Source: Devosia ginsengisoli
Lineage (GTDB): Bacteria; Pseudomonadota; Alphaproteobacteria; Rhizobiales; Devosiaceae
Length of the DNA stretch: 64,000 nt
NCBI RefSeq assembly: GCF_007859655.1
Contig: NZ_CP042304.1
Location: forward strand, 1,116,001 to 1,180,000
Direction of reading: 5' to 3'
The translations under genes and the position numbers were made by a program. Under the pieces are notes generated by a model. It was given only the letters and a program-made list of their open reading frames with translations. It was not told where the DNA came from and searched no databases. Shown one piece after another: positions 1 to 25,902 of this stretch; the first letter of the stretch is position 1; each line of letters begins with the position of its first letter.

Positions 1-1077
1 CATTGCGTAGACGCTGAGCACGCGGCCGCGCAGGCCATCCTCGACATTCACCTGTACCAGGGTCTGGGCGCAGATGGCCGATGCCACGAGGAAGAAGCCG
101 GAAACTACCATTGTCGGAAGGGCGACCAGCGTATGGAACGACAGTGAGAAGGCCAGCAGAGACAGCGCCATACCCAGGCAGCAAAACAGATAGGCTCTGA
201 CCAAGCCGACAATGCTCGGCCTGCCAGCGAGCCATAGCCCGCCGAACACCGCGCCGATACCAACCGCCGAGGTGAGCGCCGCTAGGTCGCTGGCATTGCC
301 CGAGAATATCTCGCCTGCCCAACCGGGAAGCAGTTCGACGACAGGGCGGCCCGCCAGGCATGTCACGCTGAGCAGGCCAAGCACGATACCGATACCCGGG
401 GTCGACACGGCATGCCGAACCCCCTCGATGGCATCGGCGATGACCGATACCTTCTTGGTCGGCACGGTCCGCGCGACAGGCGCCAGGCGCACCATGAGCA
501 ATGCACCCAACAGCACCAGAAACGACAGGGCATTTGCCGCAAAGGCCCAACCGACGCCGACCGTGGCAATGACGATGCCGGCAATGGCCGGTCCAACGAA
601 CCGCGCCAGGTTGAACGTGATGGACTTGATGGCGACGGCGGTCGTCAGGTCCGACCTGGGCACCAGCGCCGACACAAAGGCCAGCCGGAAAGGCTGAACG
701 AAGGCATCGACCGTGCCGAGCATCAGGGTCACGATCAGCAGCGTCCAGACTGTGACCTGGCCAGCAAAAAACAGCAATGCCAGCACACCGCCGATCAGAA
801 AACCCAGTATCTGGGCCAGCTTCATCATCTTCAGGCGATCCCACCGGTCTGCCGCCACGCCGGCAAAGGGCGCAATGACGACGGCCGGAAAGAGATCCGC
901 GAAGGCCACGAGCCCGAGCCAGGTAGCCGATTGCGTCAGTTCCCAGGTGAACCATCCTGCCGCGATGCGCTGCATCCAGGTGCCGATAAGCGAGCCGACA
1001 TTGCCCGCCACATAGACCCCGAAATTGCGATGCGCCAGCGTTTGCAGGATTTTGCCGAACTGGAAACTGGCTGCCAT
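1..1077 (-). CDS. MFS transporter, MFS_3 (EntS-like) type; 3' end outside window
   Basis: These are the first 359 codons of a leftward gene that runs off the left edge. Translation from the ATG at 1077 begins MAASFQFGKI and continues as a chain of hydrophobic segments. The loop GTWMQRIAAGW (residues 32-42) and the motif-A-like GVAADRWDR (73-81) are typical of the MFS_3 group of inner-membrane drug and siderophore exporters. The gene diverges from the thiolase-like gene, and a TTGTATACCA site lies 53 bases upstream, so it probably belongs to the catabolic regulon. Export of a toxic intermediate or uptake of the substrate are both possible; the substrate cannot be read from sequence. Confidence 0.8.
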   Translation of the reverse strand, partial: MAASFQFGKILQTLAHRNFGVYVAGNVGSLIGTWMQRIAAGWFTWELTQSATWLGLVAFADLFPAVVIAPFAGVAADRWDRLKMMKLAQILGFLIGGVLALLFFAGQVTVWTLLIVTLMLGTVDAFVQPFRLAFVSALVPRSDLTTAVAIKSITFNLARFVGPAIAGIVIATVGVGWAFAANALSFLVLLGALLMVRLAPVARTVPTKKVSVIADAIEGVRHAVSTPGIGIVLGLLSVTCLAGRPVVELLPGWAGEIFSGNASDLAALTSAVGIGAVFGGLWLAGRPSIVGLVRAYLFCCLGMALSLLAFSLSFHTLVALPTMVVSGFFLVASAICAQTLVQVNVEDGLRGRVLSVYAM

Positions 1078-1130
1078 TTTGGATTCGATTCTCTCACCGA
1101 ACGCCGACCAGCCGGCGCATATGAATTCTA

Positions 1131-1140
1131 TTGTATACCA
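1131..1140. promoter_or_regulatory. Operator-like palindrome TTGTATACCA (copy 1), MFS promoter
   Basis: GTATAC core at 1133-1138, 53 bases upstream of the leftward MFS start. It is preceded by GAATTC two bases away, the same arrangement as copy 5 at 18919. It fits the consensus known for FadR-type GntR regulators (GT-AC half-sites), so I infer binding by the GntR protein at 19017-19712. Confidence 0.55.
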
Positions 1141-1219
1141 TGATACGAGTCGTACAAGCACCTGCCGACTAAGGGCGTATGCCCGGATGACGTTTAGGCG
1201 CTGTCATACAGAAATTCCC

Positions 1220-1229
1220 TAGTATACAA
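1220..1229. promoter_or_regulatory. Operator-like palindrome TAGTATACAA (copy 2), thiolase-operon promoter
   Basis: GTATAC core at 1222-1227, 31 bases upstream of the thiolase-like ATG. Together with copy 1 it gives one site per promoter in this divergent gap (1078-1260). The site may overlap a -10 box, as expected for a repressor. Confidence 0.55.
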
Positions 1230-1260
1230 TTTGCGGAAGATTCACTGATCGGAGCGAGAG

Positions 1261-2427: not shown

Positions 2428-2432
2428 TCGAC

Positions 2433-2837
2433 ATGCAGCCAACCGGACGAGCCGTTCCCGCGCCACACCCCGATGCGGAGTCGCAGCCCTTCTGGGATGC
2501 CGCCGCGCAAGGCCGCTTCCTCATCAAGCGCTGCACGTCCTGTGGCGAGGCGCACTGGTTTCCGCGCACGCTGTGCCCCTTCTGCTGGAGCGACAAAACC
2601 GAATGGATCGAGGGAAGTGGCACCGGCACGATCTATAGCTGGACCGTCATGCACCGCGCCAAGCCACCCTATGCGGTGGCCTATGTCGAACTCGCCGAAG
2701 GGCCGCGCATGCTGACCAATATCGTGGAATGCGATCTCGACCGGCTGCATATCGGCCAGCAGGTGGAACTGGTCTTCACCCCGACCAGCGGCGAGGATAC
2801 GCCGCCGGTGCCGATGTTTCGTCCCATCGGGGGCTAG
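2433..2837 (+). CDS. DUF35 / OB-fold Zn-ribbon protein, partner of the thiolase-like protein
   Basis: A 134-residue protein with an N-terminal zinc ribbon (CTSC and CPFC pairs near residues 33-36 and 48-51) and a C-terminal OB-fold acyl-CoA-binding domain, the DUF35 architecture. It starts five bases after the thiolase-like gene with GGAG upstream, so the two are co-translated. Family members form obligate complexes with thiolase-like aldolases or acyltransferases. Its last four bases overlap the convergent etfA gene. Confidence 0.85.
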   Translation: MQPTGRAVPAPHPDAESQPFWDAAAQGRFLIKRCTSCGEAHWFPRTLCPFCWSDKTEWIEGSGTGTIYSWTVMHRAKPPYAVAYVELAEGPRMLTNIVECDLDRLHIGQQVELVFTPTSGEDTPPVPMFRPIGG

Positions 2838-3766
2838 AGCTTGCTTTCAAGCTCGGGCAGGATTTCAAAGAGGTCGCCGACCAGTCCGTAGTCGGCGACC
2901 TGGAAGATCGGCGCATCGGCATCCTTGTTGATGGCGACGATGTAGCGGGAATCCTTCATGCCGGCCAGGTGCTGGATGGCCCCGGATATGCCGCAGGCGA
3001 TATAGAGATCGGGAGCGACCACCTTGCCCGTCTGCCCAACCTGCAACTCGTTGCCGGCATAGCCGGAGTCCACGGCGGCGCGCGATGCGCCGATGGCGGC
3101 GCCGAGTTTAGCGGCGATGGGCTCGAGGAACCTGTCGAATGTCTCTTTCGAGCCGAATGCCCGCCCTCCTGAGATGACAATACGCGCCGACCCCAGGTCA
3201 GGGCGATCGGTCTGCGCCAGTTCCTGGCGTTCAAAGGCCGACAATGCCATGTCGTCCGGAACTGCCACCGCAGTGATCGGGGCGCTAGCATCGCCCTGCC
3301 CTGCCGGCTCGAAGGCGCTGGAGCGAACAGTGATGACCTTGATCGGGTCGCTCGACTGGATCGTCTCGATCGCATTGCCGGCATAGATCGGCCGGACAAA
3401 CGTATCGGGCGACTCGATCCGGGTCACTTCCGAGACCTGCATCACATCCAGCAAGGCAGCCGCTCTCGGCAGAACGCTCTTGCCAGTAGAGCTAGCAACG
3501 GCAAGCACTGCCTGAAAATCCCGCGCCAGTTCGGCAATGAGTGCACCCATGGGCTCCGCGGCCTGCTGGGCCAGGTGCGGCGCGTCGGCGACCAGGACCT
3601 TTTCGACCCCATCGAGGCGGGCCGCCTGTTCTGCGACTGCCTTGCAATTCGAACCGGCGACCAGCAGCGTCACCGGCGCTTGCATGGCGCAGGCAGCCGT
3701 AAGTGCGCGGGCCGTGAGGTCGCTGAGATTGGTATTATCGTGTTCTGCGATCAGCAGCGTTGCCAT
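2834..3766 (-). CDS. etfA: Electron transfer flavoprotein, alpha subunit
   Basis: A 310-residue ETF alpha subunit (FixB type). It begins MATLLIAEHDN, the usual N terminus; the ATG at 3766 has GGAG upstream and is preferred to a longer in-frame extension. The C-terminal FAD-binding domain carries SGGRAFGSKE and QVGQTGKVV-type motifs. It is the last gene of the leftward operon, 22 bases after etfB. With ETF beta it accepts electrons from the acyl-CoA dehydrogenase of the same operon and passes them to the ETF-quinone oxidoreductase at 19954. It is probably a pathway-specific second ETF; a housekeeping copy elsewhere cannot be checked here. Confidence 0.93.
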   Translation of the reverse strand: MATLLIAEHDNTNLSDLTARALTAACAMQAPVTLLVAGSNCKAVAEQAARLDGVEKVLVADAPHLAQQAAEPMGALIAELARDFQAVLAVASSTGKSVLPRAAALLDVMQVSEVTRIESPDTFVRPIYAGNAIETIQSSDPIKVITVRSSAFEPAGQGDASAPITAVAVPDDMALSAFERQELAQTDRPDLGSARIVISGGRAFGSKETFDRFLEPIAAKLGAAIGASRAAVDSGYAGNELQVGQTGKVVAPDLYIACGISGAIQHLAGMKDSRYIVAINKDADAPIFQVADYGLVGDLFEILPELESKL

Positions 3767-3788
3767 TGTCTCTACTCCTGTCTGGCGT

Positions 3789-4538
3789 TCAGAGAACGCC
3801 GGCCTCGTTGCGCAGCCGGTCGAGCAGTTCATCGACCGACGCCACCAGGGTGCCCGCCTTGCGTGCCGGTGGCTCGGTCACCGACAACACAGTATGCCTT
3901 GGCGCAATATCCACGCCGAGGCTTTCGACCGTGCGGACGTCGACCGGCTTCTTCTTGGCCTTCATGATATTGGGCAGCGATGCATAGCGCGGCTCGTTGA
4001 GCCGCAGGTCGGTGGTGATCACGGCCGGCAACTTCAGCGATACGGTCTGCAGGCCACCATCCACTTCCCTTGTGACGGATACCCGCCCTTCCCCGAGTTC
4101 GACCCTTGATGCAAAAGTGCCTTGGGCCCAGCCCAGCAGCGCTGCCAGCATCTGACCGGTCTGGTTGGCATCGTCGTCGATGGCCTGCTTGCCGAGGAAC
4201 ATCAGGTCGGCCGCCTCTTCCATGGCGATTGCCTTGAGCAGCTTGGCAACGGCGAGTGGCTCGACACGCGCATCGGTCTGCACATGAATGCCCCTGTCGG
4301 CGCCCATGGCCAGGCCGTTGCGCAGGGTCTCATTGGCCTGCGCCGGACCGATGGAAACCAGCACCACCTCCTCGGCCTTGCCAGTCTCCTTGAGCCGCAG
4401 CGCCTCTTCGACGGCAATTTCGTCGAACGGATTCATGGCCATCTTGACGTTGGTGAGTTCGACCCCCTGCCCGTCCGGGCGCACGCGCACCCGCACATTC
4501 GGATCGACGACGCGTTTGACGGCAACAAGAATCTTCAT
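3789..4538 (-). CDS. etfB: Electron transfer flavoprotein, beta subunit
   Basis: A 249-residue ETF beta subunit (FixA type). It begins [13 protein letters not shown], the family's standard N terminus, so the ATG at 4538 with GAGG upstream is taken instead of a TTG two codons earlier. The [21 protein letters not shown] stretch is the ETF-beta recognition-loop signature that docks acyl-CoA dehydrogenases. It lies between the acyl-CoA dehydrogenase gene and etfA and forms the AMP/FAD-binding heterodimer with EtfA. Confidence 0.93.
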
Positions 4539-4568
4539 TTGCAAACCTCGGATAAACAGGCCGGACCG

Positions 4569-6904
4569 CTACTTCGGCAGTCCGAGCACACGCTGTGCCA
4601 GCACGTTGCGCTGGATGTCGTTTGAGCCCGACGCGATCTGCGACGGGAACATTGCGTAGAACGGGGCAAGGACATCGATATCGGCGCTGCCGAAAGCTTG
4701 CCGGCCGACAATGCCCCCCCTCCTCACCGGCCGTTTCGATCAGCAGCTCTGACAACCGCTGAGCGCATTCGCCGGCCCATATCTTGAGTTGGGAGATTTC
4801 CGGCCCCGGCATGAGGCCGTTACCCACAATGTCCGAGAAGCGCGAATAGGCCGATTTGAGATCGGTTATATCCAGATAGATCGCGGTGTATTTTTCCCGA
4901 TAGACCGGGTCCAGGGCCAGCGAACGGGCATCGGCGACCTGCTGCAGCAGCTTGAGCGGCCCCTGCACGCGCCGCGGGCTGCCATTGTTGAGGCGCTCGA
5001 AGCCGAGCAGCGATTTGGCGACCGACCAGCCCTTATCGAGTTCCCCAATAAGATTGTCGGCAGGCACCCGAACTTCGTCGAAGAAGACCTCGCAGAACTC
5101 TTCATGCCCCGCCAGGTTGCCGATGGGCCGGATGGTCACGCCTGATGTCTTGAGGTCGAGCACGAAAAAGCTGATGCCCTCCTGCTTCTTTACGGCCTTG
5201 TTGGTGCGCGCCAGCAGGAACATATGCGTCGCGTGATGCGCCATCGTGGTCCAGATCTTGGACCCGTTGATGACGAAGGCATCGCCATCTCGCACCGCCT
5301 CAGTGCGCAGGCTAGCCAGGTCGGATCCAGCATTGGGTTCCGGAATAACCCTGGCACCAGATATACTCATTGGTGACGATCTTGGGCAGGAAGCGCCGCT
5401 TCTGCTCGTCCGTGCCGTAGCGCATGAGCATGGGCCCGAACATCACCACGCCCTGGTCCGGATTCCGGGCGATACCCACACGCTCGCGCTCTTCGATGAA
5501 GATCACCTGCTTGGCCGGCGACAGGCCCATTCCGCCATGCTCGACCGGCCAGGCCGGGGCTATCCAGCCCTTGCGGACCATGCGGTCGAGCCAATCCGCC
5601 ATTTCACCTGGCGTTCCGCGCCGGCCCAGCCCTCTGAGATGCTGCGGATAGTGCGCCTCAAGATAAGCGCGTATGCCGGCCCGGAAAGCATCGTTCGAAA
5701 AACTGTTCCAGTCCACGGCCAGCTTTTGCTCGGCCATGAACTCCGCAGGCACCGCCGCAGCCGTGACCTCCCGGCCCTCTTCCAGCCCACCCTGGCGGCG
5801 CTCCAATAATGCACCATAGCGGGCCTGATGCGCCGCTGCATTGCCATGAAGGGCCGCCAGCGACAGCAGGCGCTTGAGATAGAGGCCGACGTCATATTCG
5901 TCGGTTACGCCGATCGCGCCATGCAGCTTGATCGCTTCACGGCCGATCAGCATGCCCGCCGCGCTGCAGCGAGCCTTGGCCCGGGAAGCCTCCATCTCGA
6001 TCAGCTCGAGATCATCGGAGCCATCGAGCGCGGCGATTGCTTCGGAGAGCACTGAACGGCTCAATTCCTTCTGGATATAGAGGTCCACAGCACGGTGCTG
6101 CAGGGCCTGGAAACTGCCGATGGGCCTGTCGAACTGCACCCGTGTTTTCATATAGTCCAGCGTGATGGACAGCGCCTCGTCCATGGCGCCGAAGAGCTCA
6201 GCCGCCGTCATCAGCACGGCCGCTGCCCGCCCCCGGATTAAGGCGGCCGAGGCTGCGGCGCCTTCAGCCAAGACGTTTTCGGCCGATACCCGCACCTCGG
6301 CGAAGGTAACGGTACCCGAAAAGGTGCCATCGGCGCGGCTTTCGGGCACGATCGATATGCCGGGCGCTGCGGCGTCGACGAAGACGATCAAGGTTTCGGC
6401 GCCATCGCGCGCAGCAACGACAAAGCCGTCAACTGCCAATGCTGGCAGGACATGCCGTGCAGTGCCGGTAAGGCGCCTAGCGCCATCATGCGTAACCGCA
6501 ATATCGGCTTCCACGACTGCACAGAGCTTGTCGCCCGATGCGATCTGTACCAGCAGTTCGGGGCTGCGGTTATCCTGCCGGCATCCCAGCAGAACCGTTG
6601 CCGCATGAACGGCGCAACCGACGATTGGCTCCGGACTGAGGCCCCGCGCCAACTCCTCGACGATGACCTGCATTGCTGCAAAAGGCAGCCCGAGCCCGCC
6701 GGACGCTTCCGGAATAATGGTGCCCAGCCAGCCCTGCTGCGCCATTTCGCGCCACGCGTCGCGATCAAAACCAGGCTGGACTCCCCGCAGTTTGCGCACG
6801 CGCTTGAGACCGCCCTGCTCATTGAAACGCCGGACACTGTCCCGCAACATCTCGAGCGTCTCAGTATCGACTACCGCTTCGGCATGGACATTGGCGGTGG
6901 TCAT
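4569..6904 (-). pseudogene. Tandem (FadE34-like) acyl-CoA dehydrogenase, two frameshifts
   Basis: Two acyl-CoA dehydrogenase units are joined in one reading frame, about 777 residues after repair. The ATG at 6904 overlaps the stop of the upstream MmgE gene (ATGA). Unit one covers residues 1-365. A 20-residue linker leads to unit two, whose first residue is the internal Met at 5737 (residue 390). Unit two carries the WCQGYSEPNAGSDL flavin and substrate motif and ends near NDIQRN and LGLPK. As given it is broken twice: an extra G at the doublet 5340-5341, and an extra base in the C7 run 4714-4720. Both repaired halves read as intact protein, so a sequencing cause is likely. Role: alpha,beta-desaturation of an acyl-CoA with ETF as acceptor. 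Tandem fusions occur in steroid-type degraders. Two separate proteins translated from the internal GGAG/ATG are also possible. Confidence 0.8.
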
Positions 6905-8292
6905 GGCTGGCGACCTTCCCCAGCAACCAACCCCAGCGGCAGCCGCGAAACGTCCGAGCAGGTAGCAATACTTTCCAATGCGTCGGCCAATGCCTCCATC
7001 CGGGATGGCGGAAAGGCACGGGTGAGCGACAGGAAGCGCCGACGCAACTGTGCCGCATCGAGCGGGCTCTCCGGGCAACCAAGGAAGCCAGCCGGTTCAC
7101 CCGCCAGCACGCGACCATCGGTGAGCGTCACCCGCATGCACGTCGACCATCCCTTGAGTGCCGGATCGGCGGTCATGCGAATGCGATCGGCCAGCGCATG
7201 CACCTTCGGCTCCCTTATCGCGCCATCGGTCAAGGTGCCGGGATCATCGAGGTCGTTATAGACCGAGAAGGCAAGCATGAACGGCACGCTGTACTGGGCC
7301 AGCGCCATATCGGCCGGATGTTGCTCGGCATGATGACTGGCAAGCTTGGGGGCGACATCGAGTTCAATTCCGGCGATATCGGCGGGGCCGAACATGGCGG
7401 CTGCCCGCCAATCCGACAACATCTGGATGGGCGCCTGGGCAGTGACATGGCAGGCATAGCGCTTGATGCACAGCGTCTCGATCTCGTAGCGGCGTCCCAA
7501 ACCGGCATCGAGCAGTTCAGGACGCGATGTTTCGCAGAACGTCTCGAGCACGCCCCCCGGACCTTCGATCACGGCGCTCGGGCCCTCATAGCCAGCCGCA
7601 GCAAGCCGGGCGGCAATAACGCCGTTCTGCGCAGCCCGCCCCAGGTGGAGCCGCTTGATCATGCCCCCATCGCCCGAAGCGGCAAAGCGCAGCAGGCCGC
7701 CGCTCATCGAGGCGGCAATGCCGAGGCAGTGCGCCATCTGCCGGGGTGACAGCCCCATGAGGCGGCCGGCCGCCACGGCGGAGCCGAAGACGCCCGTAAT
7801 ACCCGGCGCGTGAAAGCCGCGCTTTTCGGCCGTGTGAAGCGTCGCGGCACCGATACGGAACATCACCTCTATCCCGGCAACGATGGCAGTCAGCAGCTCG
7901 CGCCCGCTGCTCCCAAGCGACTGGGCCACTGCCAGCGCCGGCAGCGCCACTGTCGCACCGGGGTGGACACCGGCGCCAGGCTTGCGCAGGGAATCAAGTT
8001 CGAAAGCATGCGCGAAGACACCCGAGAGCAGCGCCGCTGACGCCGCATCGGTTGTGATGTCCGTGCCAAGCACGGCCACCAACCCGACCGGCCGTTCGAC
8101 CGCGCTCACCACGGCTTGCGACCAGGCAAACCTGCTGCCGAACCAGGCGCAGGCAACGGCATCGACAAGGCAATTGCTCGCAGCCGCGACAACATGCGGC
8201 GGCAGGTCATCGAACCGGAGATTGGCGCCATAGCCGGCCAGTGCCTCGGTATAGACAGGCAGGCGCGTTGCTTGCTGTGGTAAGGCCGTCAC
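6901..8292 (-). CDS. MmgE/PrpD family protein (1)
   Basis: A 463-residue protein of the MmgE/PrpD fold (2-methylcitrate dehydratase, cis-aconitate decarboxylase and related lyases). Family landmarks are SNCLVDAVACAW near the N terminus, the FAHAFELDSL helix, HPGATVALPAL, the GFHAPGITGVFG segment and IKRLHLGRAAQNG. I chose the GTG at 8292 because it just clears the upstream flavoprotein gene and gives the usual N terminus; no ATG fits. The end overlaps the acyl-CoA dehydrogenase start by four bases. It is likely to hydrate, dehydrate, epimerise or decarboxylate a polycarboxylic acid or its CoA ester; the substrate is unknown. It is one of three diverged paralogues in the locus. Confidence 0.8.
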   Translation of the reverse strand: MTALPQQATRLPVYTEALAGYGANLRFDDLPPHVVAAASNCLVDAVACAWFGSRFAWSQAVVSAVERPVGLVAVLGTDITTDAASAALLSGVFAHAFELDSLRKPGAGVHPGATVALPALAVAQSLGSSGRELLTAIVAGIEVMFRIGAATLHTAEKRGFHAPGITGVFGSAVAAGRLMGLSPRQMAHCLGIAASMSGGLLRFAASGDGGMIKRLHLGRAAQNGVIAARLAAAGYEGPSAVIEGPGGVLETFCETSRPELLDAGLGRRYEIETLCIKRYACHVTAQAPIQMLSDWRAAAMFGPADIAGIELDVAPKLASHHAEQHPADMALAQYSVPFMLAFSVYNDLDDPGTLTDGAIREPKVHALADRIRMTADPALKGWSTCMRVTLTDGRVLAGEPAGFLGCPESPLDAAQLRRRFLSLTRAFPPSRMEALADALESIATCSDVSRLPLGLVAGEGRQP

Positions 8293-8326
8293 TCTGGTTC
8301 TCGTCCCGCTGGCATGGTCGATCCGA

Positions 8327-9844: not shown

Positions 9845-9861
9845 CCCTAAACCCTGGATTA

Positions 9862-9871
9862 TGGTATACCA
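9862..9871. promoter_or_regulatory. Operator-like palindrome TGGTATACCA (copy 3), flavoprotein-operon promoter
   Basis: A perfect 10-base palindrome, extended to 12 bases (9861-9872), 17 bases upstream of the flavoprotein ATG. This is the most symmetric of the seven copies. It lies in the divergent gap 9845-10116, which holds copy 4 and no gene. Confidence 0.6.
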
Positions 9872-10046
9872 TCGTACTCATGCACCAAAGCTGCAGGCAT
9901 GGCAAGTTCGTTCGAGCGTTTTTCCGGGGAGTTATGTGGATGTGGCGCTATGGGCACATGGAATCACGTAACCGCAGAACTGCCGTGGTTCTCGGGTCGC
10001 TACCTCCGCCAGATAAATATGAAGACCTGGGTGCCGTTGATCAAAA

Positions 10047-10056
10047 AAGTATACCA
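10047..10056. promoter_or_regulatory. Operator-like palindrome AAGTATACCA (copy 4), MBL-fold gene promoter
   Basis: GTATAC core at 10049-10054, 60 bases upstream of the metallo-beta-lactamase-fold gene. An A-run precedes it. With copy 3 it again gives one site for each of two divergent promoters. Confidence 0.5.
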
Positions 10057-10116
10057 ATGTATTCTTTTGGCCGTGACGAACCGCGGACTCGCGCCAGACA
10101 TGTATGAAAGGCCCCG

Positions 10117-11157: not shown

Positions 11158-11163
11158 GACCTG

Positions 11164-12564: not shown

Positions 12565-12584
12565 GCCGATAGTCTCCTGATCTG

Positions 12585-13487: not shown

Positions 13488-13502
13488 ACTATTCTCCGTC
13501 GG

Positions 13503-14882: not shown

Positions 14883-14912
14883 CGTTCTGCTCCTCGGTGT
14901 TCTGTTCCGCCG

Positions 14913-15770: not shown

Positions 15771-15773
15771 CGG

Positions 15774-17930: not shown

Positions 17931-18850
17931 GGCAGATACGACGTGAACACATCACGCGTGCGGTCGAGCGGCATGAAAGCCGGCTCGAAGACGGGCATGA
18001 CGTGCTGGGCAATGGCCTGCGGGGTCCAGCCTTCGGCAGTATGCGCATGCCGGATCGGGCGCATCTGGTTGAACAGGAACAACTCGTTATCGCGCGTATA
18101 GAAAACCTGGCCCGTCACACGGCTGGCGGCGTCGCTGGCCAGGTAAACCACGATGGGAGCATTCTTTTCCGGCGCGATGGTCCGCCGGTTGGCGGCGCGC
18201 TGCTTCTGTTCCGCGGTTTCGGTCGGGATGGATTCGGTCATGCGGGTGAAGGCCGAGGGCGCCACCACATTGGAACGCACATTGAAGCGCTTCATGTCCA
18301 GCGCGATGGCCTTGGACAGCCCCTGGAGACCGATCTTGGCGGCGCCGTAATTGGCCTGGCCGACACCACCGATCAGCCCGGATGTGGAACTGATATGGAC
18401 GAAAGCGCCCGATTCCTGCTTGCGGAAATGCGCGGCTGCTGCCCGGCTCACATAGAAGCTGCCAGTCAGGATGACGCCGATCGACAGGTCCCAGTCGGCC
18501 TTTTCCATCTTGTGAAAGATCGTGTCTCGCAGGATGGCTGCATTGTTGACCACGCAGTCGATGCGCCCGAAGGCGTCGATTGCAGTCTGCACCATGCGAT
18601 GGGCGCCATCCCAGTCAGAGACGCTGTCGGCATTTGCGACGGCCTCGCCGCCCTCGGCGCGGATCTCGGCCGCGGCCTGCTCGGCAACGCTTTCATTCGC
18701 TCCGGTCCCGCCGACTTCGACGCCCAGATCGTTGAGCACGACCTTGGCACCCTGACGCGCCATCATGCGGGCAATTTCCTTGCCGATGCCCCGCCCGGCC
18801 CCCGTTACCAGGACAACCTTTCCTTCAACGATCCTGTCCGGAAGCTCCAC
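17927..18850 (-). CDS. SDR-family 3-hydroxyacyl-CoA dehydrogenase-like protein
   Basis: A 307-residue classical short-chain dehydrogenase. It has NAD(P)-binding TGAGRGIG (16-23), NNA (102-104), catalytic Ser155/156, Tyr168 and Lys172 (YGAAK). An acidic Asp41 after the second strand favours NAD. The 45-residue C-terminal extension and overall character match the dehydrogenase part of MFE-2-like proteins. Start: GTG at 18850 with GGAGGGG seven bases upstream. It is first in a six-gene operon, and copy 5 of the palindrome lies 68 bases upstream. Likely step: oxidation of a beta-hydroxyacyl-CoA. Confidence 0.87.
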   Translation of the reverse strand: MELPDRIVEGKVVLVTGAGRGIGKEIARMMARQGAKVVLNDLGVEVGGTGANESVAEQAAAEIRAEGGEAVANADSVSDWDGAHRMVQTAIDAFGRIDCVVNNAAILRDTIFHKMEKADWDLSIGVILTGSFYVSRAAAAHFRKQESGAFVHISSTSGLIGGVGQANYGAAKIGLQGLSKAIALDMKRFNVRSNVVAPSAFTRMTESIPTETAEQKQRAANRRTIAPEKNAPIVVYLASDAASRVTGQVFYTRDNELFLFNQMRPIRHAHTAEGWTPQAIAQHVMPVFEPAFMPLDRTRDVFTSYLP

Positions 18851-18918
18851 TGATACCCCTCCCCGTCGGCGCAGCGCGAATCCATCGGCACGCCTATCGC
18901 TCTATCAATAGAATTCCG

Positions 18919-18928
18919 TTGTATACCA
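18919..18928. promoter_or_regulatory. Operator-like palindrome TTGTATACCA (copy 5), SDR-operon promoter
   Basis: Identical 10-mer to copy 1, also preceded by GAATTC at two bases' distance (18911-18916). It lies 68 bases upstream of the SDR start in the 163-base gap before the GntR gene end. Confidence 0.58.
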
Positions 18929-19016: not shown

Positions 19017-19712
19017 TTAGTCGGCTTCGGTCGCGCTCTGGCGAGCGGCGCTGACCCTGAGACGCGCGGCAAAAGCGGCCTTGATGTGATTGGCGGCGGC
19101 GCGACCTGCTGCAGCGCCATCGCGTTCGGCGATCGCCTTGGCCAGTTTCTGGTGTTCTTCGACCACGGCGACCTGACGATCCGGATCAATCAGCGAAGAG
19201 CCGCGCCGATCGGCCGCCACGACATCGTCGAGGCCCAGGCTGAACTTGGCCAGATAGCGATTATGCCCCGCGCGACGGATCAGTTCATGGAAGGCCCTGT
19301 TATGTTCGTACATCTTGTCGCGATCACCAACCAGGCCCGGTTCCAGCTCGCAATGCCGCATGATGGCGCTGAGTTCCGGGCCTGAACCGTTCTGCGCGGC
19401 CTGCTCGGCAAGGGCGCTTTCCAGCACCTGCCGGGCCAGGAACAGCTCCTTGAGCGCATCTTCGTCGATTGTCGCCACGACCAGTCCGCGGCGCGCCCGA
19501 TAGGATAGCAGGCCTTCCGCCTCGAGACGCTGCAGGCCCTCGCGGGCCGGTGTGCGGCTGATCTTGAGCCAATCGGCAATGCGGTATTCCGACACGCGAT
19601 CGCCGGGAGAAAGCTCGCCGCTTTCGATTGCCTGACGCACGGCATCGTAAGCGCGCTGCGCCAGCGGCATGCCGTCGGCCTGGCTACGTTTTATGACGGG
19701 TTGTCGCGCCAT
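19017..19712 (-). CDS. GntR-family regulator, FadR/FCD subfamily
   Basis: A 231-residue regulator. The N-terminal winged helix-turn-helix (about 17-80) has RIADWLKISRTPAREGLQRLEAEGL, and an all-helical FCD effector domain (about 90-215) carries the metal-ligand pattern with EHNRAFHELI and late histidines. It is encoded leftward between the two main operons, with no operator copy close to its own start (nearest is 199 bases away, by the ETF-QO gene). FCD regulators usually repress catabolic genes until a carboxylic acid or acyl-CoA binds. The GTATAC palindrome at seven promoters fits its family's DNA consensus, so it is the likely local repressor. Confidence 0.9.
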   Translation of the reverse strand: MARQPVIKRSQADGMPLAQRAYDAVRQAIESGELSPGDRVSEYRIADWLKISRTPAREGLQRLEAEGLLSYRARRGLVVATIDEDALKELFLARQVLESALAEQAAQNGSGPELSAIMRHCELEPGLVGDRDKMYEHNRAFHELIRRAGHNRYLAKFSLGLDDVVAADRRGSSLIDPDRQVAVVEEHQKLAKAIAERDGAAAGRAAANHIKAAFAARLRVSAARQSATEAD

Positions 19713-19910: not shown

Positions 19911-19920
19911 TGGTATACTA
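19911..19920. promoter_or_regulatory. Operator-like palindrome TGGTATACTA (copy 6), ETF-QO promoter
   Basis: GTATAC core at 19913-19918, 33 bases upstream of the ETF-QO ATG. The same bases read as an extended -10 element (TGGTATACT), so operator and promoter may coincide. The gap 19713-19953 holds nothing else I can name. Confidence 0.58.
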
Positions 19921-19953
19921 CTGCATTCAATACGTGTTGGCAGGAGCTATTTG

Positions 19954-21624
19954 ATGGCGGTGGACGGCGAGGGCATAGCGGACGATCGCGAGAGCATGGA
20001 TTTCGACGTGGTCGTTGTCGGGGCCGGCCCTGCCGGACTGGCCGCGGCGATCCGGCTCAAGCAGCTTGCTCCCGATCTGTCCGTGGTCGTTCTCGAAAAG
20101 GGCGCTGCGGTGGGCGCCCATATCCTGTCCGGCGCCGTGATCGATCCTTCCAGCCTCGACGAACTTCTGCCCGGCTGGCGTGATGGAGACCTGCCCCTGA
20201 TGACCGAGGTCACCAGCGACAGGTTTGACATCCTCACCCGTAATGGCCGCCTGCCCGTTCCCAACATTCTGATGCCGCCGCTGATGAGCAACCACGGCAA
20301 CCTCATTGTCTCGCTGGGCGATCTCTGCCGCTGGCTGGGCGAGAAAGCCGAGGCGCTGGGCGTCGAAATCTATCCCGGCTTTGCCGCCACCGAAGTCGTC
20401 TATAACGAGAGCGGCGCGGTACGCGGCGTCGCCACCGGCGATATGGGGATTTCGCGCGACGGTACGCCCGGCCCCGGCTTCGCGCGCGGCATGAAGCTGC
20501 TGGGCAAATATGTGCTGATGGCCGAAGGTGTTCGCGGCTCACTCTCCGAACGCATCATCGAGCGGTTCGAGCTGCGAAAGGGGCGCGAACCGCCCAAGTA
20601 TGGCCTGGGCATAAAGGAACTCTGGGAAGTCAGGCCTGAACAGCATAGGCAGGGTCAGGTCCACCATTCCTTCGGCTGGCCGCTTGGTGCCGGCACTGGC
20701 GGCGGATCGTTCCTCTATCACCTGCCCGACAATCTGGTCGCCGTCGGGCTGGTCGTGCACCTCAACTATTCCAATCCCTATCTGTCGCCATTTGAAGAGT
20801 TCCAACGCTTCAAGACACACAAGGCAATTGCCCCGATTTTTGCCGGAGGCAAACGGGTCGGCTACGGCGCCAGGGCGATCAGCGAAGGCGGCTGGCAGTC
20901 GGTGCCGCGCCTCAGCTTTCCGGGCGGCCTGCTGCTGGGCTGTGCGGCCGGGCTCGTCAACGTTCCACGCATCAAGGGTTTTCACAACGCATCCCGCTCC
21001 GGAATGCTGGCGGCCGAACATGTGGCAGCCGCCATTGCCGCCGGCCGCGCCGGTGACGAAATCAGCGCCTTCGAGGATTCCTGGCGCGACAGCACTATCG
21101 GGCAGGATCTCTGGCGGGTCCGCAACGTCAAGCCGCTCTGGTCGCGGTTCGGCACCTATCTCGGCATTGCACTGGGCGGGCTGGATATGTGGTGCAACAC
21201 GCTGTTCAAATGGTCTCCCTTCGGCACCATCGGACACAGTGGACCGGACCATGCAGCGCTCGATCCGGCTGCCGAGCACCAGCCAATCCAATACGACAAG
21301 CCGGACGGTGTGCTGACCTTCGACCGGCTGTCCTCGGTCTTCCTGTCGAACACCAACCATGAGGAAGACCAGCCGGTCCACCTACATGTGTTGGATCCGG
21401 CATTGCAGCGGCAGAGCGAACTGGAGGTCTTTCAAGGCCCTTCGACCCGCTACTGCCCCGCGGCAGTCTACGAGTGGCAGACCGAAGCCGACGGCAGTCC
21501 GCGCTTCGTCATCAATGCGCAGAACTGCGTGCACTGCAAAACCTGCGACATCAAGGACCCCAACCAGAATATCCGCTGGGTGCCGCCACAGGGTGGCGAA
21601 GGCCCCGTCTATCCGCGCATGTAG
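19954..21624 (+). CDS. Electron transfer flavoprotein-ubiquinone oxidoreductase
   Basis: A 556-residue ETF-QO. It has an N-terminal FAD-binding motif VVVGAGPAGLAAAIRL, a membrane-dipping ubiquinone region, and a C-terminal 4Fe-4S ferredoxin-like segment NCVHCKTCDIKDP near residues 523-535. The ATG at 19954 with CAGGAG eight bases upstream is chosen over an earlier in-frame Met that would precede the operator. It passes electrons from reduced ETF to the quinone pool at the inner membrane. Having ETF, ETF-QO and the dehydrogenase under one operator set gives the pathway its own route to respiration. Confidence 0.94.
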   Translation: MAVDGEGIADDRESMDFDVVVVGAGPAGLAAAIRLKQLAPDLSVVVLEKGAAVGAHILSGAVIDPSSLDELLPGWRDGDLPLMTEVTSDRFDILTRNGRLPVPNILMPPLMSNHGNLIVSLGDLCRWLGEKAEALGVEIYPGFAATEVVYNESGAVRGVATGDMGISRDGTPGPGFARGMKLLGKYVLMAEGVRGSLSERIIERFELRKGREPPKYGLGIKELWEVRPEQHRQGQVHHSFGWPLGAGTGGGSFLYHLPDNLVAVGLVVHLNYSNPYLSPFEEFQRFKTHKAIAPIFAGGKRVGYGARAISEGGWQSVPRLSFPGGLLLGCAAGLVNVPRIKGFHNASRSGMLAAEHVAAAIAAGRAGDEISAFEDSWRDSTIGQDLWRVRNVKPLWSRFGTYLGIALGGLDMWCNTLFKWSPFGTIGHSGPDHAALDPAAEHQPIQYDKPDGVLTFDRLSSVFLSNTNHEEDQPVHLHVLDPALQRQSELEVFQGPSTRYCPAAVYEWQTEADGSPRFVINAQNCVHCKTCDIKDPNQNIRWVPPQGGEGPVYPRM

Positions 21625-21664: not shown

Positions 21665-22855
21665 ATGCAGGGTCTGGCGGCTTTGGACGGCATCCGAGTT
21701 GTCTGCTTCGGCATGGGTGCGGCCGCGCCCTTCGCCACCGCGTCCCTCGCCGATTTCGGTGCCGAGGTCATCAAGGTCGAACCACCGGGTGGCGACTGGT
21801 CACGCACCACGCCCGGTCTCGGCACGCGCGAATTCAACCGCAACAAGCGCGGCATCGCCATTAACCTGAAATCGAGCGACGGTCTCGCGCTGGCGCTCAA
21901 GCTGATCGCCCGTGCCGATGTGGTGATGGAAAGCTTCCGGCCCGGCGTCATGGACCGGCTGGGGCTGGGATATGCGACGCTGCAGCAGGCCCATCCCCGA
22001 CTGGTCTATTGCTCGGTCAGCGCCTATGGCCAGGATGGTCCGTGGAAGGACAGGCCGGGCGTCGATGGCATCATCCAGGCCGTATCCGGCATCATGAGCG
22101 TGCTCGGCAGCGAAGACGAGGATGCCGAGCCGATCAAGACGCCCTTCCCCATGGCCGATATGGCCGCCGGCTTTCTCGCGGCACAGGGCATCCTGCTGGC
22201 CTTGCTGGCGCGCGACAGGCACGGCATGGGCCAGCATGTTGATGTCAGCCTGCTCGAGGCGGCCCTCGTGATCCAGAAATCCTCGATGACCCGCTATCTC
22301 CAGTCCGGGGAACTGCCCCGTCGTACCGGCAGCCGCGCACCCTATGCCACGCCCAACGAGGCCTATCGCACCAGCGATGGTCACATCATGCTGGCCGCCT
22401 ATAGCCCTGCCCGCTGGAGTGCCTTCTGCCGCAATGTCCTGGATATGCCCGAACTGGAAACCGACCCGCGCTTTGTCGACCGCAAGGTTCGCCAGGGTAA
22501 CCAGAAAGCCTTGAAGCGCATCATCGAGGAGGTGTTCTCACACCGTACCAGCGCCGAATGGCTGGAACTGTGCGAGGCCAACGACCTGATCTGCGGTTCG
22601 ATCAACACCTATGACCGGGTGATCGCCCACGAGCAGGTCAGCGCGCGCAATGCGATCGAGACGGTGTCGTTTCCCGATGGAGAAACAATGCGCACGCTTG
22701 CCGCAGCGCCAAAGCTCAGCGCTACGCCCGGCAAGGTGACATCGCCCTACCCCGCCAAGATCGGGCAACACACGCGTCAGGTGCTCACGGAACTCGGCCT
22801 TGCGCCCGCCGAAATCGACCGGTTGCGGGATGAGGGCATCATCGGCACGGCTTGA
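21665..22855 (+). CDS. CaiB/BaiF (family III) CoA transferase
   Basis: A 396-residue family III CoA transferase. Asp165 in PMADMAAG is the expected catalytic aspartate that forms the anhydride. Other family marks are ADFGAEVIKVEPP, NRNKRGIAI and GRGQ-like GMGQHVDVSLLEA. The ATG at 21665 has AGGAG eight bases upstream. It follows ETF-QO by 40 bases on the same strand. It moves CoA from a donor thioester, often succinyl-CoA or an end product, to the pathway acid. It precedes a thiamine-diphosphate enzyme gene, a pairing that recalls formyl-CoA transferase with oxalyl-CoA decarboxylase, but the sequence does not prove that activity. Confidence 0.9.
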   Translation: MQGLAALDGIRVVCFGMGAAAPFATASLADFGAEVIKVEPPGGDWSRTTPGLGTREFNRNKRGIAINLKSSDGLALALKLIARADVVMESFRPGVMDRLGLGYATLQQAHPRLVYCSVSAYGQDGPWKDRPGVDGIIQAVSGIMSVLGSEDEDAEPIKTPFPMADMAAGFLAAQGILLALLARDRHGMGQHVDVSLLEAALVIQKSSMTRYLQSGELPRRTGSRAPYATPNEAYRTSDGHIMLAAYSPARWSAFCRNVLDMPELETDPRFVDRKVRQGNQKALKRIIEEVFSHRTSAEWLELCEANDLICGSINTYDRVIAHEQVSARNAIETVSFPDGETMRTLAAAPKLSATPGKVTSPYPAKIGQHTRQVLTELGLAPAEIDRLRDEGIIGTA

Positions 22856-22877: not shown

Positions 22878-23000
22878 TTGTATATTGCATGTTTTTCAAT
22901 GTTTCAGGCGGATTCTTGATGGACATGGAAAGTCCTTCGAGTCACAGTGTACCTCGGTGTTCTTCATAGGAAGATGCCCGATTGCTTCTGGGAGGAAGAA

Positions 23001-24143
23001 ATGTTCGGATCAAAACGCACACATGGCAGGCACTTTCCGGCGCGCTCCACGCTTTCGGCCTTGGCCGTTGCGGCAGGAGCGGCCCTCACCTTCATCGCAG
23101 CGTCGCCCGCTCTAGCGCAAGCCGACCTGGACTTTACCGGAGAAGAGATCGAGCTGACGGTCCCCTATGGGCCTGGCGGCGGCTCGAACACGCATAACCG
23201 CCTGTTTGTGCTGGGTTTGCAGCAGACGTTGCCCGGCCAGCCGACCATTGTGGTTCGCAACGTCGAGGGTGGCGGCTCCATCACCGGGACCAATGAATTC
23301 GCCGCACGCGCCGAACCTGATGGCCGCGCCTTCATCGGCGTCGGCTCGAGCACCATTCTCAACCAGATCCTGCGTGACCCATCGGTCCGCTACGACCTTG
23401 GCGAATTCATACCATTCCTCTCGTCCCCGGGCGGGTCCATCGTCTATGCGCGCAGCGACTACGCGGGCGGGCTGACCGACGACCCGATCGAGAACATCCG
23501 CAAGGTCATCGAGAATCCGCCCACCATTGCCAGCCAGACGATTACCTCCTCCGATATCGGCATGCTGCTCAGCTACGACCTGCTGGGGATCAAGCCCAAG
23601 GTGGTGTTCGGCATCGGCCTGGGAGAGTCGCGTGCCGGCCTGGAGCGCGGGGAATTCCAGATGCGGCACGATACCATGTTCTCCTATGGCGACGCCGTGG
23701 CACCGCTGGTGGAAGATGGCTCGGCCAAGCTGCTCTTCACCATGGGCTATGAAGAAGACGGTGAGATCGTGCGCGACCCCATGGTTCCCGACGTGCCGCA
23801 TTTCCTAGAGGTCTACGAGGCAATCTACGGCAAGCCCCTCTCGGGGATCGAATATGACGTGTGGAAATCCCTCTTCAACGTCCGCGTCATGGCGGGCAAG
23901 GTGCTGATGCTCCCGGCCGGAACCGCGCCGGAAATCGTCGAGGCCTACGCGCAGGCAACACGCGACGCGCTCGAACTACCCGTGATGCAGGACGGCCCGG
24001 CCAAGCTCATCATCGGTGAATACCCGCAGGTCACCGGCGCCGAGGCGACAGGCCGGATCATGGAAGGCGCACTGAGCCTTACCCCTGAACATCTCGAATG
24101 GCTCAAGGCCTGGGCTGCCGAAACGCACGGCGCAACCTTCTAA
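23001..24143 (+). CDS. Tripartite tricarboxylate transporter (TctC/Bug family) substrate-binding protein
   Basis: A 380-residue secreted binding protein. The ATG at 23001 has GGAGGA four bases upstream. A signal peptide of about 40 residues ends near SPALAQA. The mature protein starts with the Bug signature region (ELTVPYGPGGGSN) and VVRNVEGGGS, the loops that hold carboxylates in TctC/BugD. No TctA or TctB membrane subunit is encoded in the window, so it may use a transporter elsewhere or act as a periplasmic sensor. It supports a di- or tricarboxylate as pathway substrate, which is inference from family ligands. Confidence 0.9.
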   Translation: MFGSKRTHGRHFPARSTLSALAVAAGAALTFIAASPALAQADLDFTGEEIELTVPYGPGGGSNTHNRLFVLGLQQTLPGQPTIVVRNVEGGGSITGTNEFAARAEPDGRAFIGVGSSTILNQILRDPSVRYDLGEFIPFLSSPGGSIVYARSDYAGGLTDDPIENIRKVIENPPTIASQTITSSDIGMLLSYDLLGIKPKVVFGIGLGESRAGLERGEFQMRHDTMFSYGDAVAPLVEDGSAKLLFTMGYEEDGEIVRDPMVPDVPHFLEVYEAIYGKPLSGIEYDVWKSLFNVRVMAGKVLMLPAGTAPEIVEAYAQATRDALELPVMQDGPAKLIIGEYPQVTGAEATGRIMEGALSLTPEHLEWLKAWAAETHGATF

Positions 24144-24161
24144 GCACGTTGTTTGCTCCCC

Positions 24162-24185
24162 ACCGCCTGGCCACGGCCGGGCGGT
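24162..24185 (+). promoter_or_regulatory. Strong hairpin between tctC-like and ThDP-enzyme genes
   Basis: Arms 24162-24172 and 24175-24185 pair over 11 positions with one G-T wobble (ACCGCCTGGCC against GGCCGGGCGGT). No T-run follows, so it is more likely a processing or attenuation structure that lowers expression of the downstream enzyme than a full terminator. Confidence 0.45.
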
Positions 24186-24228
24186 ATTGCCATGCCCCGA
24201 TCATTCGACGCGCCCGGAGAACTGACCC

Positions 24229-25902
24229 ATGACCAACATGCCTATCTACGAGGCGCTCGCGCAGGCCTTTAGTGCGGAAGGCGTGGATACGCATTTCACG
24301 CTCATGGGCGATGGCAACATGCACTGGGCCACGGCCATGAAGAACATTTCGGGCATGACCACTGTCCACGCCCGCCACGAGCATTGCGCCTGCACTATGG
24401 CGATGGGCTATACCAGCGCCACCGGCAAAGTGGGCGTCGCTTCGGTTACCTGCGGCCCCGGCTTCACCCAGATCATGACGGCGCTGGCCTCAGCGTCGCG
24501 GGGCGGCGTGCCAATGGTGGTGTTTGCCGGCGAAACCCCGCTCAAGGCGAAATGGTATGGGCAGTTCATCGACCAGCAGCCGCTAGCGGCGGCCTGTGGC
24601 GCCCATTATATCACCGCTCATAGCCCCGATCGCATGTATCAATATGTCCGCGAGGCGTTCTACGTCGCGCGCCATGAGCGCAAGCCCGTCGTGATCGGTG
24701 TTCCCTATGACCTGCAGAAGCAGGCCATGCCCGATATCGGCGCCTACAAGCCATCATCCACGGTCCTGCCGCAGACCGCGCCCATGCCACCAAATCCGGA
24801 GCAGTTGGCCTATGTCGTCGATCGCCTGGCCCAGGCGAAGGCACCGATTATCCTGGCCGGACGCGGCGTCATATGGTCGGGCGCCCGGACCGAGGTGGAG
24901 GCTCTTGCCGAAGCCAGCGGTGCCCTCCTGTCCACCACGCTGCTGGGCCGCGGAATGTACGACCACAATCCCTTTTCCGTCGGCGTTTGCGGAGGCTTCG
25001 CCCGCGCCATCGCCCGAGAGGCTTTCGCCCAATCCGACCTGGTCCTGGCCATCGGGGCGAGCCTCACTTATCACACCATGGATGGCGGGCGCATCATTCC
25101 GGAAATCACCGAAGTCATCCAGATCGATCCACATCCGATCGGTCTGCGGGATGGCCTCGAAGCGGCCGACATCTACGTGAAAGCCGATGCCAAATTGACC
25201 GCGACGGCCCTGCTCACCGCACTCGAGAAACGAGGGCCCACAGCCGCCAGCATCCGCAGCGCGGAACTGGCCCGGCGTATCAGGGAAGAGCCGGCGGACA
25301 ATGCCCGGTATGATATCGCGCCCGGGACCCTCGATCCCCGCGCCGTTTTCGCCGAGCTGGAAACTGTCATCCCCCGCGATTACGACATGGTGAGCGGCTC
25401 GGGGCACCAGTCTTATTTCCACACGGTGATGCGCGGCGGCGAACCCACGCGCTATCACGCGATGCGCGATTTCGGTGCCATCGGCAACGCCATTTCCTAC
25501 GCCGTCGGCATCGCAGCCGTCCGCAAGACCGGCAAGGTCGTGCTGTTCGAGGGCGACGGCAGCCTGCTCATGCATGTCCAGGAGTTCGAAACCCTGAGGC
25601 GCCAAGGCATCAAGATGCTCATCGTCTGCAGCAATGACGGTGCCTATGGCGCCGAGATCCACAAGCTGCGGGAAGACGGCATCGACGATACAGGCGCCAT
25701 TTTCGGCCGACCCGACTTCGCCGAAATCGCCCGCGGCTTCGGGCTGCGCGGCGAGAACGTCACGACGCTCGGCCGGTTTAGGGACCTGCTGGAGGAGTTC
25801 GAACGCGGCGATACCACCATGGTGTGGAACGTCCATATGTCGGACCTGGTGGTCAATCCGCGCATGCGCCAGAACGTGAAGGCCGGCCACGGCGCCCGCT
25901 AG
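24229..25902 (+). CDS. Thiamine-diphosphate-dependent enzyme (acetolactate synthase/decarboxylase family)
   Basis: A 557-residue ThDP enzyme with the three expected domains: N-terminal PYR (catalytic Glu51 in ARHEHCA), central domain, and C-terminal PP domain with GDGS near residue 442 and the paired SNDGAYG about 27 residues on. The second Asn of the usual NN is Asp here. I see no extra ADP or CoA site as in oxalyl-CoA decarboxylase. Candidates are a 2-oxo-acid decarboxylase, a 2-hydroxyacyl-CoA lyase, or a carboligase acting on a product of the PrpB-like lyase (glyoxylate or pyruvate). It lies 85 bases after the binding-protein gene, separated by a hairpin. Confidence 0.85.
   Translation: MTNMPIYEALAQAFSAEGVDTHFTLMGDGNMHWATAMKNISGMTTVHARHEHCACTMAMGYTSATGKVGVASVTCGPGFTQIMTALASASRGGVPMVVFAGETPLKAKWYGQFIDQQPLAAACGAHYITAHSPDRMYQYVREAFYVARHERKPVVIGVPYDLQKQAMPDIGAYKPSSTVLPQTAPMPPNPEQLAYVVDRLAQAKAPIILAGRGVIWSGARTEVEALAEASGALLSTTLLGRGMYDHNPFSVGVCGGFARAIAREAFAQSDLVLAIGASLTYHTMDGGRIIPEITEVIQIDPHPIGLRDGLEAADIYVKADAKLTATALLTALEKRGPTAASIRSAELARRIREEPADNARYDIAPGTLDPRAVFAELETVIPRDYDMVSGSGHQSYFHTVMRGGEPTRYHAMRDFGAIGNAISYAVGIAAVRKTGKVVLFEGDGSLLMHVQEFETLRRQGIKMLIVCSNDGAYGAEIHKLREDGIDDTGAIFGRPDFAEIARGFGLRGENVTTLGRFRDLLEEFERGDTTMVWNVHMSDLVVNPRMRQNVKAGHGAR

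Follow-up and report, generated by a model that had tools for sequence, protein, structure and literature searches.

A putative GntR-controlled catabolic locus of Devosia ginsengisoli that may join a TcuA-PrpD-PrpB polycarboxylate core to coenzyme A-dependent genes

To our knowledge, the breakdown of branched tricarboxylates is little described in bacteria. The closest described systems are the tcuABC genes of Salmonella, the 2-methylcitrate cycle (prpBCD), steroid side-chain beta-oxidation, and the PA0878-PA0886 genes of Pseudomonas aeruginosa. The steroid system, as we take it, uses an acyl-coenzyme A (acyl-CoA) dehydrogenase of the ChsE4-ChsE5 type and a DUF35 protein paired with a thiolase-like aldolase; acyl-CoA dehydrogenases normally donate their electrons to electron transfer flavoprotein (ETF). 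In Salmonella, TcuB has been described as the quinone oxidoreductase for growth on tricarballylate (PMC10468695), and an MmgE/PrpD protein of P. aeruginosa has been assigned as methylsuccinate isomerase (PMC9875883). Here we analyzed a 64,000-nucleotide stretch of Devosia ginsengisoli (hereafter the window; bases 1,116,001-1,180,000 of a single-contig 4.48-Mb genome), the first 26 kb of which, together with about 15 kb before the window start, we lean towards reading as one catabolic regulon of a GntR-FCD regulator, with a core acting on free acids and a CoA-dependent extension.

The locus comprises about 30 adjoining genes. An earlier note on this DNA had let it begin with the window, which does not hold, as a same-strand operon (minus strand, positions 3285-17774 of stretch L008) precedes the window start. 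This operon encodes a fourth MmgE/PrpD protein, a 3-hydroxy-3-methylglutaryl-CoA (HMG-CoA)-lyase-like protein (266 bits versus the PRK05692 cut-off of 246 in a profile search), three crotonases, an acyl-CoA dehydrogenase, a CaiB protein, an iron alcohol dehydrogenase, a TctC-like protein, a TctA-TctB fusion, and a second thiamine diphosphate (ThDP) enzyme; a LysR gene diverges from it and adjoins an operator site. Within the window, profile searches confirmed the thiolase, DUF35 (ChsH2-type), ETF alpha and beta, ETF-quinone oxidoreductase (ETF-QO), MaoC, short-chain dehydrogenase (SDR), ADP-forming acyl-CoA synthetase, and CaiB genes, as well as three MmgE/PrpD proteins, PrpB, a metallo-beta-lactamase (MBL) fold hydrolase, the GntR-FCD regulator, and a ThDP enzyme. 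Nearly all names in the earlier inventory were thereby upheld, except that its "tandem" acyl-CoA dehydrogenase is one fused gene, and its three MmgE/PrpD proteins were confirmed for the window but are joined by the fourth upstream. The upstream half, the fusion, and the operator had been overlooked.

The promoters on both sides of gntR (19017..19712, minus strand; PF00392, PF07729; start codons are approximate in all gene coordinates given here) have the octamer TGGTATAC in common. It was found at seven places in 82 kb: before the upstream PrpD operon, in the gap between the major facilitator superfamily (MFS) transporter and thiolase genes, before tcuA, the MBL gene, the SDR operon, and etfqo, and once within a crotonase gene. 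The extended pattern TGGTATACNANNGNAYTC, which was derived from these sites and those of Terrihabitans soli so that its counts are partly circular, has five exact matches in the genome, all at the locus; allowing up to two mismatches yields eight, seven of them at the locus, compared to three for the reversed-pattern control. Six of these matches lie in the window, versus a mean of 0.13 in window shuffles. Exact matches from the pattern search occupy 1123..1140 (minus strand, between the MFS and thiolase genes), 9862..9879 (plus strand, upstream of tcuA, with a core that is a perfect palindrome), 18911..18928 (minus strand, upstream of the SDR operon), and 19911..19928 (plus strand, upstream of ETF-QO). 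Sites with two mismatches lie upstream of the thiolase gene (1212..1229, minus strand; a one-mismatch counterpart stands at the same place in G014, a genome of the same genus) and of the MBL gene (10047..10064, plus strand; one mismatch in G014). In G014, 7 of 12 matches are at the locus, including all seven with no or one mismatch (reversed-pattern control, 4); in T. soli, 5 of 10 are, including all four with no or one mismatch (control, 4). The weight of the pattern is its concentration at the locus and its recurrence at shared-gene promoters in another family. One GntR regulon across the units of the locus is likely on these grounds. The operator common to most units also supports the earlier proposal that the genes have one joint catabolic function; as to their joint control, its distribution points toward co-regulation and does not prove it. 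The octamer is absent from the related stretches L047, L048, and L049 and from a second T. soli locus, where the GntR relatives are about 28-32% identical.

The core of the locus is conserved in order. Among 36 other genomes of the genus, a close prpD_c (98%) was found in G014 only, which carries a colinear copy over 48 kb at 89.5% DNA identity. T. soli has the order etfA-etfB-prpD_a-tcuA-prpD_b-prpB-prpD_c-gntR with etfqo divergent, at 62-87% identity and with the shared genes ordered as in the window. The window members are etfA (2834..3765; PF01012, PF00766; 71% to T. soli), etfB (3789..4538; PF01012; 73%), prpD_a (6901..8320; PF03972, PF19305; 62%), the frameshift-split tcuA for a tricarballylate-dehydrogenase-type flavoprotein (8404..9844; 81-87%), and prpD_c (13503..14882; PF03972; 78%), all on the minus strand like prpD_b, prpB, and gntR (74%), and ETF-QO on the plus strand (19954..21624; PF05187, PF21162; 70%); the starts of etfA, etfB, prpD_a, and ETF-QO in particular are approximate. 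TctAB, a TctC-like protein, an SDR, and another PrpD lie beside the T. soli core, whereas its 50 kb gave no match to the fused acyl-CoA dehydrogenase, MaoC, acyl-CoA synthetase, thiolase, DUF35, MBL, CaiB, or ThDP genes. In the window, the additional genes are inserted between etfB and prpD_a, between tcuA and prpD_b, and between prpD_c and gntR, and also stand outside the shared order. From this comparison we infer that an ancestral core came first and that the CoA-dependent genes were added later; alternatively, T. soli lost them. The earlier note had taken the six-gene operon from SDR to MmgE as the diagnostic unit for a neighborhood search. That operon is colinear in G014 but is not kept in T. 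soli, which retains only the prpD_c-prpB-prpD_b half, beside tcuA and ETF, and so it cannot serve as such. At E 1e-95, PrpB was found in 3 genomes from a sample of 397 of the order, including this genome and T. soli, and one of the three (58%) falls outside the PrpB clade described below. Class-wide, the acyl-CoA synthetase at E 1e-190 recovered 1 of 385 genomes, which is this genome itself, and prpD_b at E 1e-120 recovered 3 of 385, namely this genome, G478, and G728. In about 30 kb from each of G478 and G728, prpD_b is accompanied by relatives of prpD_a (46-49%) and TcuA (59-60%), and PrpB gave no match.

PrpB (12585..13487, minus strand) has the intact KKCGH motif, as had been noted before, and passed the methylisocitrate lyase model TIGR02317 (371.4 bits versus a cut-off of 354.4). 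A PrpB scan of named genomes was performed and the best 80 loci were taken; among these best 80, three (an Octadecabacter metagenome-assembled genome (MAG), a Hyphomicrobiales MAG, and Paracoccus onubensis) have tcuA, prpB, prpD_b, and TctAB/TctC-like genes. In a PrpB tree of 88 rows, the seven rows linked to prpD_b form one clade (support 100/100), consisting of the window, G014, two T. soli copies, and those three loci. The partner, prpD_b (11164..12564, minus strand; PF03972), shares 67-77% identity with its counterparts in five clade loci and 98% with that of G014. No PrpC match, defined as more than 100 bits to one alphaproteobacterial PrpC, was detected in the examined stretch of any of the seven clade loci, compared to matches in 36 of the 81 other rows; this count could take in ordinary citrate synthases of Bacillota, and some of the rows without a match lie on short contigs. 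Likewise, no methylcitrate synthase was recognized in the window's locus. These results support the earlier suggestion that a PrpD-PrpB pair without a recognized methylcitrate synthase is plausibly fed by oxidation, and the TcuA and TctAB/TctC-like members bear out its tricarboxylate-like theme.

Further relatives were found outside this core. A second T. soli locus (L134/L135, 2846753-2857033) contains prpB, prpD_b, TctAB, a TctC-like gene, and a ThDP enzyme (47%), with no tcuA match in 35 kb; it may be a related locus with a simpler version of this chemistry. Between prpD_a and TctAB, L047 (1678-2757) and L049 (1844-2944) carry an ornithine-cyclodeaminase/mu-crystallin family gene, which hints at a nitrogen-containing or imine step there. 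A DNA match in Sinorhizobium NGR234 was rejected, as only ETF and ETF-QO match among the locus genes and the neighbors are other-flavoprotein-like genes and a transporter. Also rejected were prpD_c relatives (44-48%) on plasmids of Klebsiella, Rhizobium, Sodalis, and Shinella (L028-L031), which have different gene neighborhoods, often including another MmgE/PrpD gene and a transporter of the TauE or tripartite tricarboxylate type.

The best reading of the core is the simplest chain, in which a (branched) tricarboxylate would be desaturated, hydrated, and split by aldol cleavage. The GntR-FCD protein would control the regulon through TGGTATACCA-like operators, a TctAB/TctC-type system would import a di- or tricarboxylate, and the TcuA-type flavoenzyme would desaturate the saturated polycarboxylate, with its electrons passing to the locus's ETF, ETF-QO, and then quinone. 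The MmgE/PrpD proteins may hydrate, dehydrate, or epimerize the product to a 2-hydroxy-(2-alkyl)-isocitrate-like acid, which the PrpB-family lyase would split into a 2-oxoacid and succinate or a substituted dicarboxylate. In Devosia, the CoA-dependent genes (fused acyl-CoA dehydrogenase, MaoC, SDR, thiolase/DUF35, acyl-CoA synthetase, CaiB, HMG-CoA-lyase-like protein, and crotonases) would extend this core, and their products probably trim a side chain or handle the fragments. Only tentatively, and at somewhat less than even chance, do we propose the full version: an alkyl-substituted tricarboxylate pathway in which ETF/ETF-QO would replace TcuB as partner of a TcuA-class dehydrogenase, several dissimilar MmgE/PrpD proteins and a dedicated PrpB clade would yield a 2-oxoacid and a dicarboxylate without a citrate synthase step, and a CoA side-chain module would have later joined the GntR regulon. 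Candidate substrates are tricarballylate, butane-1,2,3-tricarboxylate, and hematinic-acid-like or terpene-derived tricarboxylates; the results favor none of them. Searches of the open-licence literature found neither the combination of tricarballylate with electron transfer flavoprotein nor that of MmgE, PrpB, and transporter; a search with MmgE led to a paper on an itaconate operon. If true, the proposal would supply a concrete route for branched tricarboxylates and give TcuA-type enzymes an electron partner not described for them before. It would also assign functions to MmgE/PrpD and PrpB paralogues, which usually go under the names of methylcitrate-cycle enzymes, and the GntR protein with its operators could be used as a reporter for finding the inducing acid.

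Several observations weigh against this reading, in addition to the partial circularity of the extended pattern. The bare octamer is unexceptional, given that 25 of its 1680 anagrams (itself included) reach at least seven places in 82 kb (mean 1.1), and the crotonase gene contains one of its own seven places. A divergent LysR gene belongs to the upstream operon, which may therefore be under double control, in which case GntR is not its sole regulator. PrpB scored below the second methylisocitrate lyase model, NF008455 (286.6 versus 353), and the intact TcuA of G014, which reached 575 bits against the NF006130 cut-off of 369, fell under the second TcuA model, TIGR02485 (275 versus 372.55). T. 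soli has a TcuB homologue elsewhere in its genome, and no ETF match was found in the examined stretches of L047, L048, L049, G478, and G728, all of which have a TcuA relative. Finally, the window copies of tcuA and of the acyl-CoA dehydrogenase gene have frames broken by frameshifts, and prpD_c keeps five of six active-site residues of cis-aconitate decarboxylase, which makes a decarboxylation step possible.

With regard to the electron route, no match to TcuB (TIGR02484) was detected in this genome or in G014. The only TcuB homologue of T. soli (361489-362574, L172) is above the cut-off, has one in-frame TGA, and is distant from the tcuA locus. Gene order and operators place the dehydrogenase, ETF, and ETF-QO together in one putative regulon in both the window and T. 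soli. Because ETF and ETF-QO are present in the T. soli cluster and its 50 kb gave no acyl-CoA dehydrogenase match, the TcuA-type enzyme stands out as the electron donor within that cluster, and TcuA probably passes its electrons via ETF/ETF-QO. It is rather unlikely that the ETF pair serves the fused acyl-CoA dehydrogenase only, with the TcuA electrons reaching quinone or oxygen otherwise; acyl-CoA dehydrogenases are the usual ETF donors, and L047-L049 have tcuA without an ETF match in the examined stretch, but the T. soli ETF genes stand in the row tcuA-prpD_a-etfB-etfA with no such dehydrogenase match in 50 kb, and an operator lies upstream of T. soli tcuA.

The CoA-dependent genes and the MBL gene are spread over several units. 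On the plus strand are the thiolase gene (lipid-transfer type, PRK08142; 1261..2427; 695 bits versus a cut-off of 462), the DUF35/ChsH2-type OB-fold protein (2433..2837; PF01796, PF12172), the MBL-fold hydrolase, a possible thioesterase (10117..11157; PF00753, PF21221), and the CaiB family III CoA-transferase (21668..22855, start approximate; PF02515, 407 bits). The minus strand encodes the fused acyl-CoA dehydrogenase, PimD-like then PimC-like (4570..6908), the MaoC/MFE-2 type enoyl-CoA hydratase (14913..15770; PF01575, PF22622), the ADP-forming acyl-CoA synthetase (15774..17930; profile search), and the PRK07791-like SDR dehydrogenase (17927..18850), which at 259 bits is below the cut-off of 373. 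The nearest solved structures of the fused dehydrogenase are 4x28 and 6wy8/6wy9, which we take to be steroid side-chain enzymes; together with thiolase/DUF35, MaoC, and SDR it is a beta-oxidation or retro-aldol set. In four plasmid stretches, MaoC occurs with SDR, thiolase/DUF35, acyl-CoA dehydrogenases, or CaiB, and MmgE/PrpD and PrpB are unannotated in these incompletely annotated stretches. The beta-oxidation part of the locus is itself ordinary. The locus might be a mosaic of unrelated neighboring operons, with a single pathway limited to the TcuA-PrpD-PrpB core and a different substrate for the CoA-dependent genes. MaoC/SDR/thiolase/DUF35/CaiB sets that stand alone in other bacteria, a T. 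soli core without the CoA-dependent genes, and the upstream LysR gene all speak for such a mosaic; the operator shared by units of both kinds, core and CoA-dependent, here and in G014, and the additional genes inside the order shared with T. soli, speak against it. So may PrpB, MaoC, and acyl-CoA synthetase homologues (P0205, P0022, and P0251) with the same longest contig of 50,643 bases, possibly another case of linkage; we consider the mosaic reading improbable, though with some residual weight, as we consider the single-regulon reading somewhat more likely than not.

The four MmgE/PrpD proteins (prpD_a, prpD_b, prpD_c, and the upstream one) are 22-29% identical to one another, and each has the D98, H107, H159, and lysine positions of prpD_b. 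With these positions kept, the four are probably active enzymes with different jobs, i.e., hydration, dehydration, epimerization, and, for prpD_c, possibly decarboxylation; the closest solved structures to both prpD_a and prpD_c include IDS-epimerase. Of the residues D93, T97, H103, H159, K207, and H277, which we take to be the active-site set of cis-aconitate decarboxylase, prpD_c retains five, prpD_a and the upstream PrpD four each, and prpD_b three (H103, H159, and K207). These proteins raise the possibility of an itaconate-type route, in which cis-aconitate or a homologous acid would be formed by TcuA and decarboxylated by an MmgE/PrpD protein, for which prpD_c is the best candidate, and CaiB, a hydratase, and a lyase would degrade the itaconate-like product. 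Consistent with this route are the five residues of prpD_c, the best solved relatives of prpD_b (cis-aconitate decarboxylases, 136 bits) and of prpD_c (B. subtilis IRG1, 133.5 bits), the CaiB and hydratase genes of the locus, and the MmgE/PrpD gene within the P. aeruginosa itaconate/methylsuccinate operon (PMC9875883). The incomplete residue sets of the other three proteins, the constant partnership of prpD_b with PrpB in 7 of 7 clade loci, and the lack of a CaiB match in the T. soli 50 kb despite the presence of prpD_c there argue against the itaconate-type route, which we judge doubtful.

The broken frames were compared with G014, in which the PimD-like and PimC-like acyl-CoA dehydrogenases are one intact 778-aa gene. 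Relative to G014, the window has two single-base insertions in this gene and one insertion plus one deletion in tcuA; G014 has its own split frames within the locus, in the MBL and TctC-like genes. Split genes also lie beyond the locus: the gene of an AI-2E family transporter (window 62480-63675) is in two frames in the window and one in G014, and a flavin disulphide oxidoreductase gene, intact in the window (42363-43802), is in two frames in the G014 assembly, which suggests sequence errors there. In a codon comparison of the window genome with G014, the ratio of nonsynonymous to synonymous substitution rates (dN/dS) was 0.00-0.15 in 23 of 24 rows, the mis-phased prpD_a row having been dropped; it was 0.016 and 0.028 on either side of the tcuA frameshift and 0.142 for the acyl-CoA dehydrogenase gene, of which the first, unshifted part alone was compared. 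Because the genes have been under purifying selection, the frameshifts are either recent or assembly errors, and assembly error is plausible because split genes occur outside the locus as well, in both assemblies. A decaying locus, in which the frameshifts in the window tcuA and acyl-CoA dehydrogenase genes and in the G014 MBL and TctC-like genes mark a pathway being lost, is therefore quite unlikely in view of the dN/dS values flanking the tcuA frameshift and the split genes elsewhere.

Citrate synthase has five matches in four open frames of the genome, and of the four pieces scored, one from each frame, none passes a methylcitrate-synthase model, although one, of 187 aa, could hardly have passed. 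That piece belongs to one of two adjacent citrate-synthase-family genes on opposite strands (G000:C1:1251034-1253241), the other of which passes the general model PRK12350. The window PrpD proteins reach at most 49 bits against PrpD cut-offs of 458-950; the upstream PrpD was searched at E 1e-30 only, and AcnD and PrpF were not sought genome-wide. A variant of the methylcitrate cycle that serves propionate and has its methylcitrate synthase encoded away from the locus, to which the TIGR02317 score of PrpB and the further citrate-synthase-family genes would lend themselves, is thus very improbable, as no scored piece passes (one being too short to judge), no clade locus has a PrpC match, and TcuA and the transporter are foreign to that cycle.

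The remaining genes concern transport and a late step. The TctC-like protein (22947..24143, plus strand) has no Pfam or NCBIfam match itself; of its relatives, the L049 homologue (50% identity) passes PF03401 at 27.3 bits (cut-off 27.0), and two others score 25.0 and 26.5. The upstream TctC-like protein is 41% identical to it, and the TctA part of the upstream fusion scored 393 bits, compared to 20.1 versus a cut-off of 29.1 for TctB. The window ThDP enzyme (24229..25902, plus strand; acetolactate synthase/2-hydroxyacyl-CoA lyase superfamily, from profile search and solved relatives) has a 2-hydroxyacyl-CoA lyase as its best solved relative (129 bits), followed by acetolactate synthases (124 bits); the latter lead its family models, in which it scores below every cut-off seen. 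The enzyme may either convert the 2-oxoacid product or serve as a 2-hydroxyacyl-CoA lyase. The MFS transporter gene (1..1161, minus strand; PF05977, on L008:17785-19161) runs past the window start and has an operator near its 5' end.

Set beside the known systems, the locus resembles tcuABC of Salmonella in a TcuA-type FAD dehydrogenase that would desaturate a tricarboxylate and in dedicated transport; it differs in that the window genome has no TcuB match and the locus has its own ETF and ETF-QO, TctAB/TctC-like import, and PrpD and PrpB downstream. The 2-methylcitrate cycle shares with it the MmgE/PrpD family and a PrpB above one curated cut-off, whereas the locus has no recognized PrpC, its PrpB is in a separate clade, and its PrpD proteins are far under the PrpD cut-offs. 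P. aeruginosa PA0878-PA0886, for branched short-chain dicarboxylates, likewise combines a CoA-transferase, an acyl-CoA dehydrogenase, and an MmgE/PrpD protein in one operon, but TcuA, PrpB, and ETF are not named for it in the accessible part of the paper (PMC9875883). Like steroid side-chain beta-oxidation, the locus has a heteromeric-type acyl-CoA dehydrogenase, DUF35, a thiolase-like protein, and MaoC, but it has both dehydrogenase halves in one chain, amid a putative polycarboxylate regulon.

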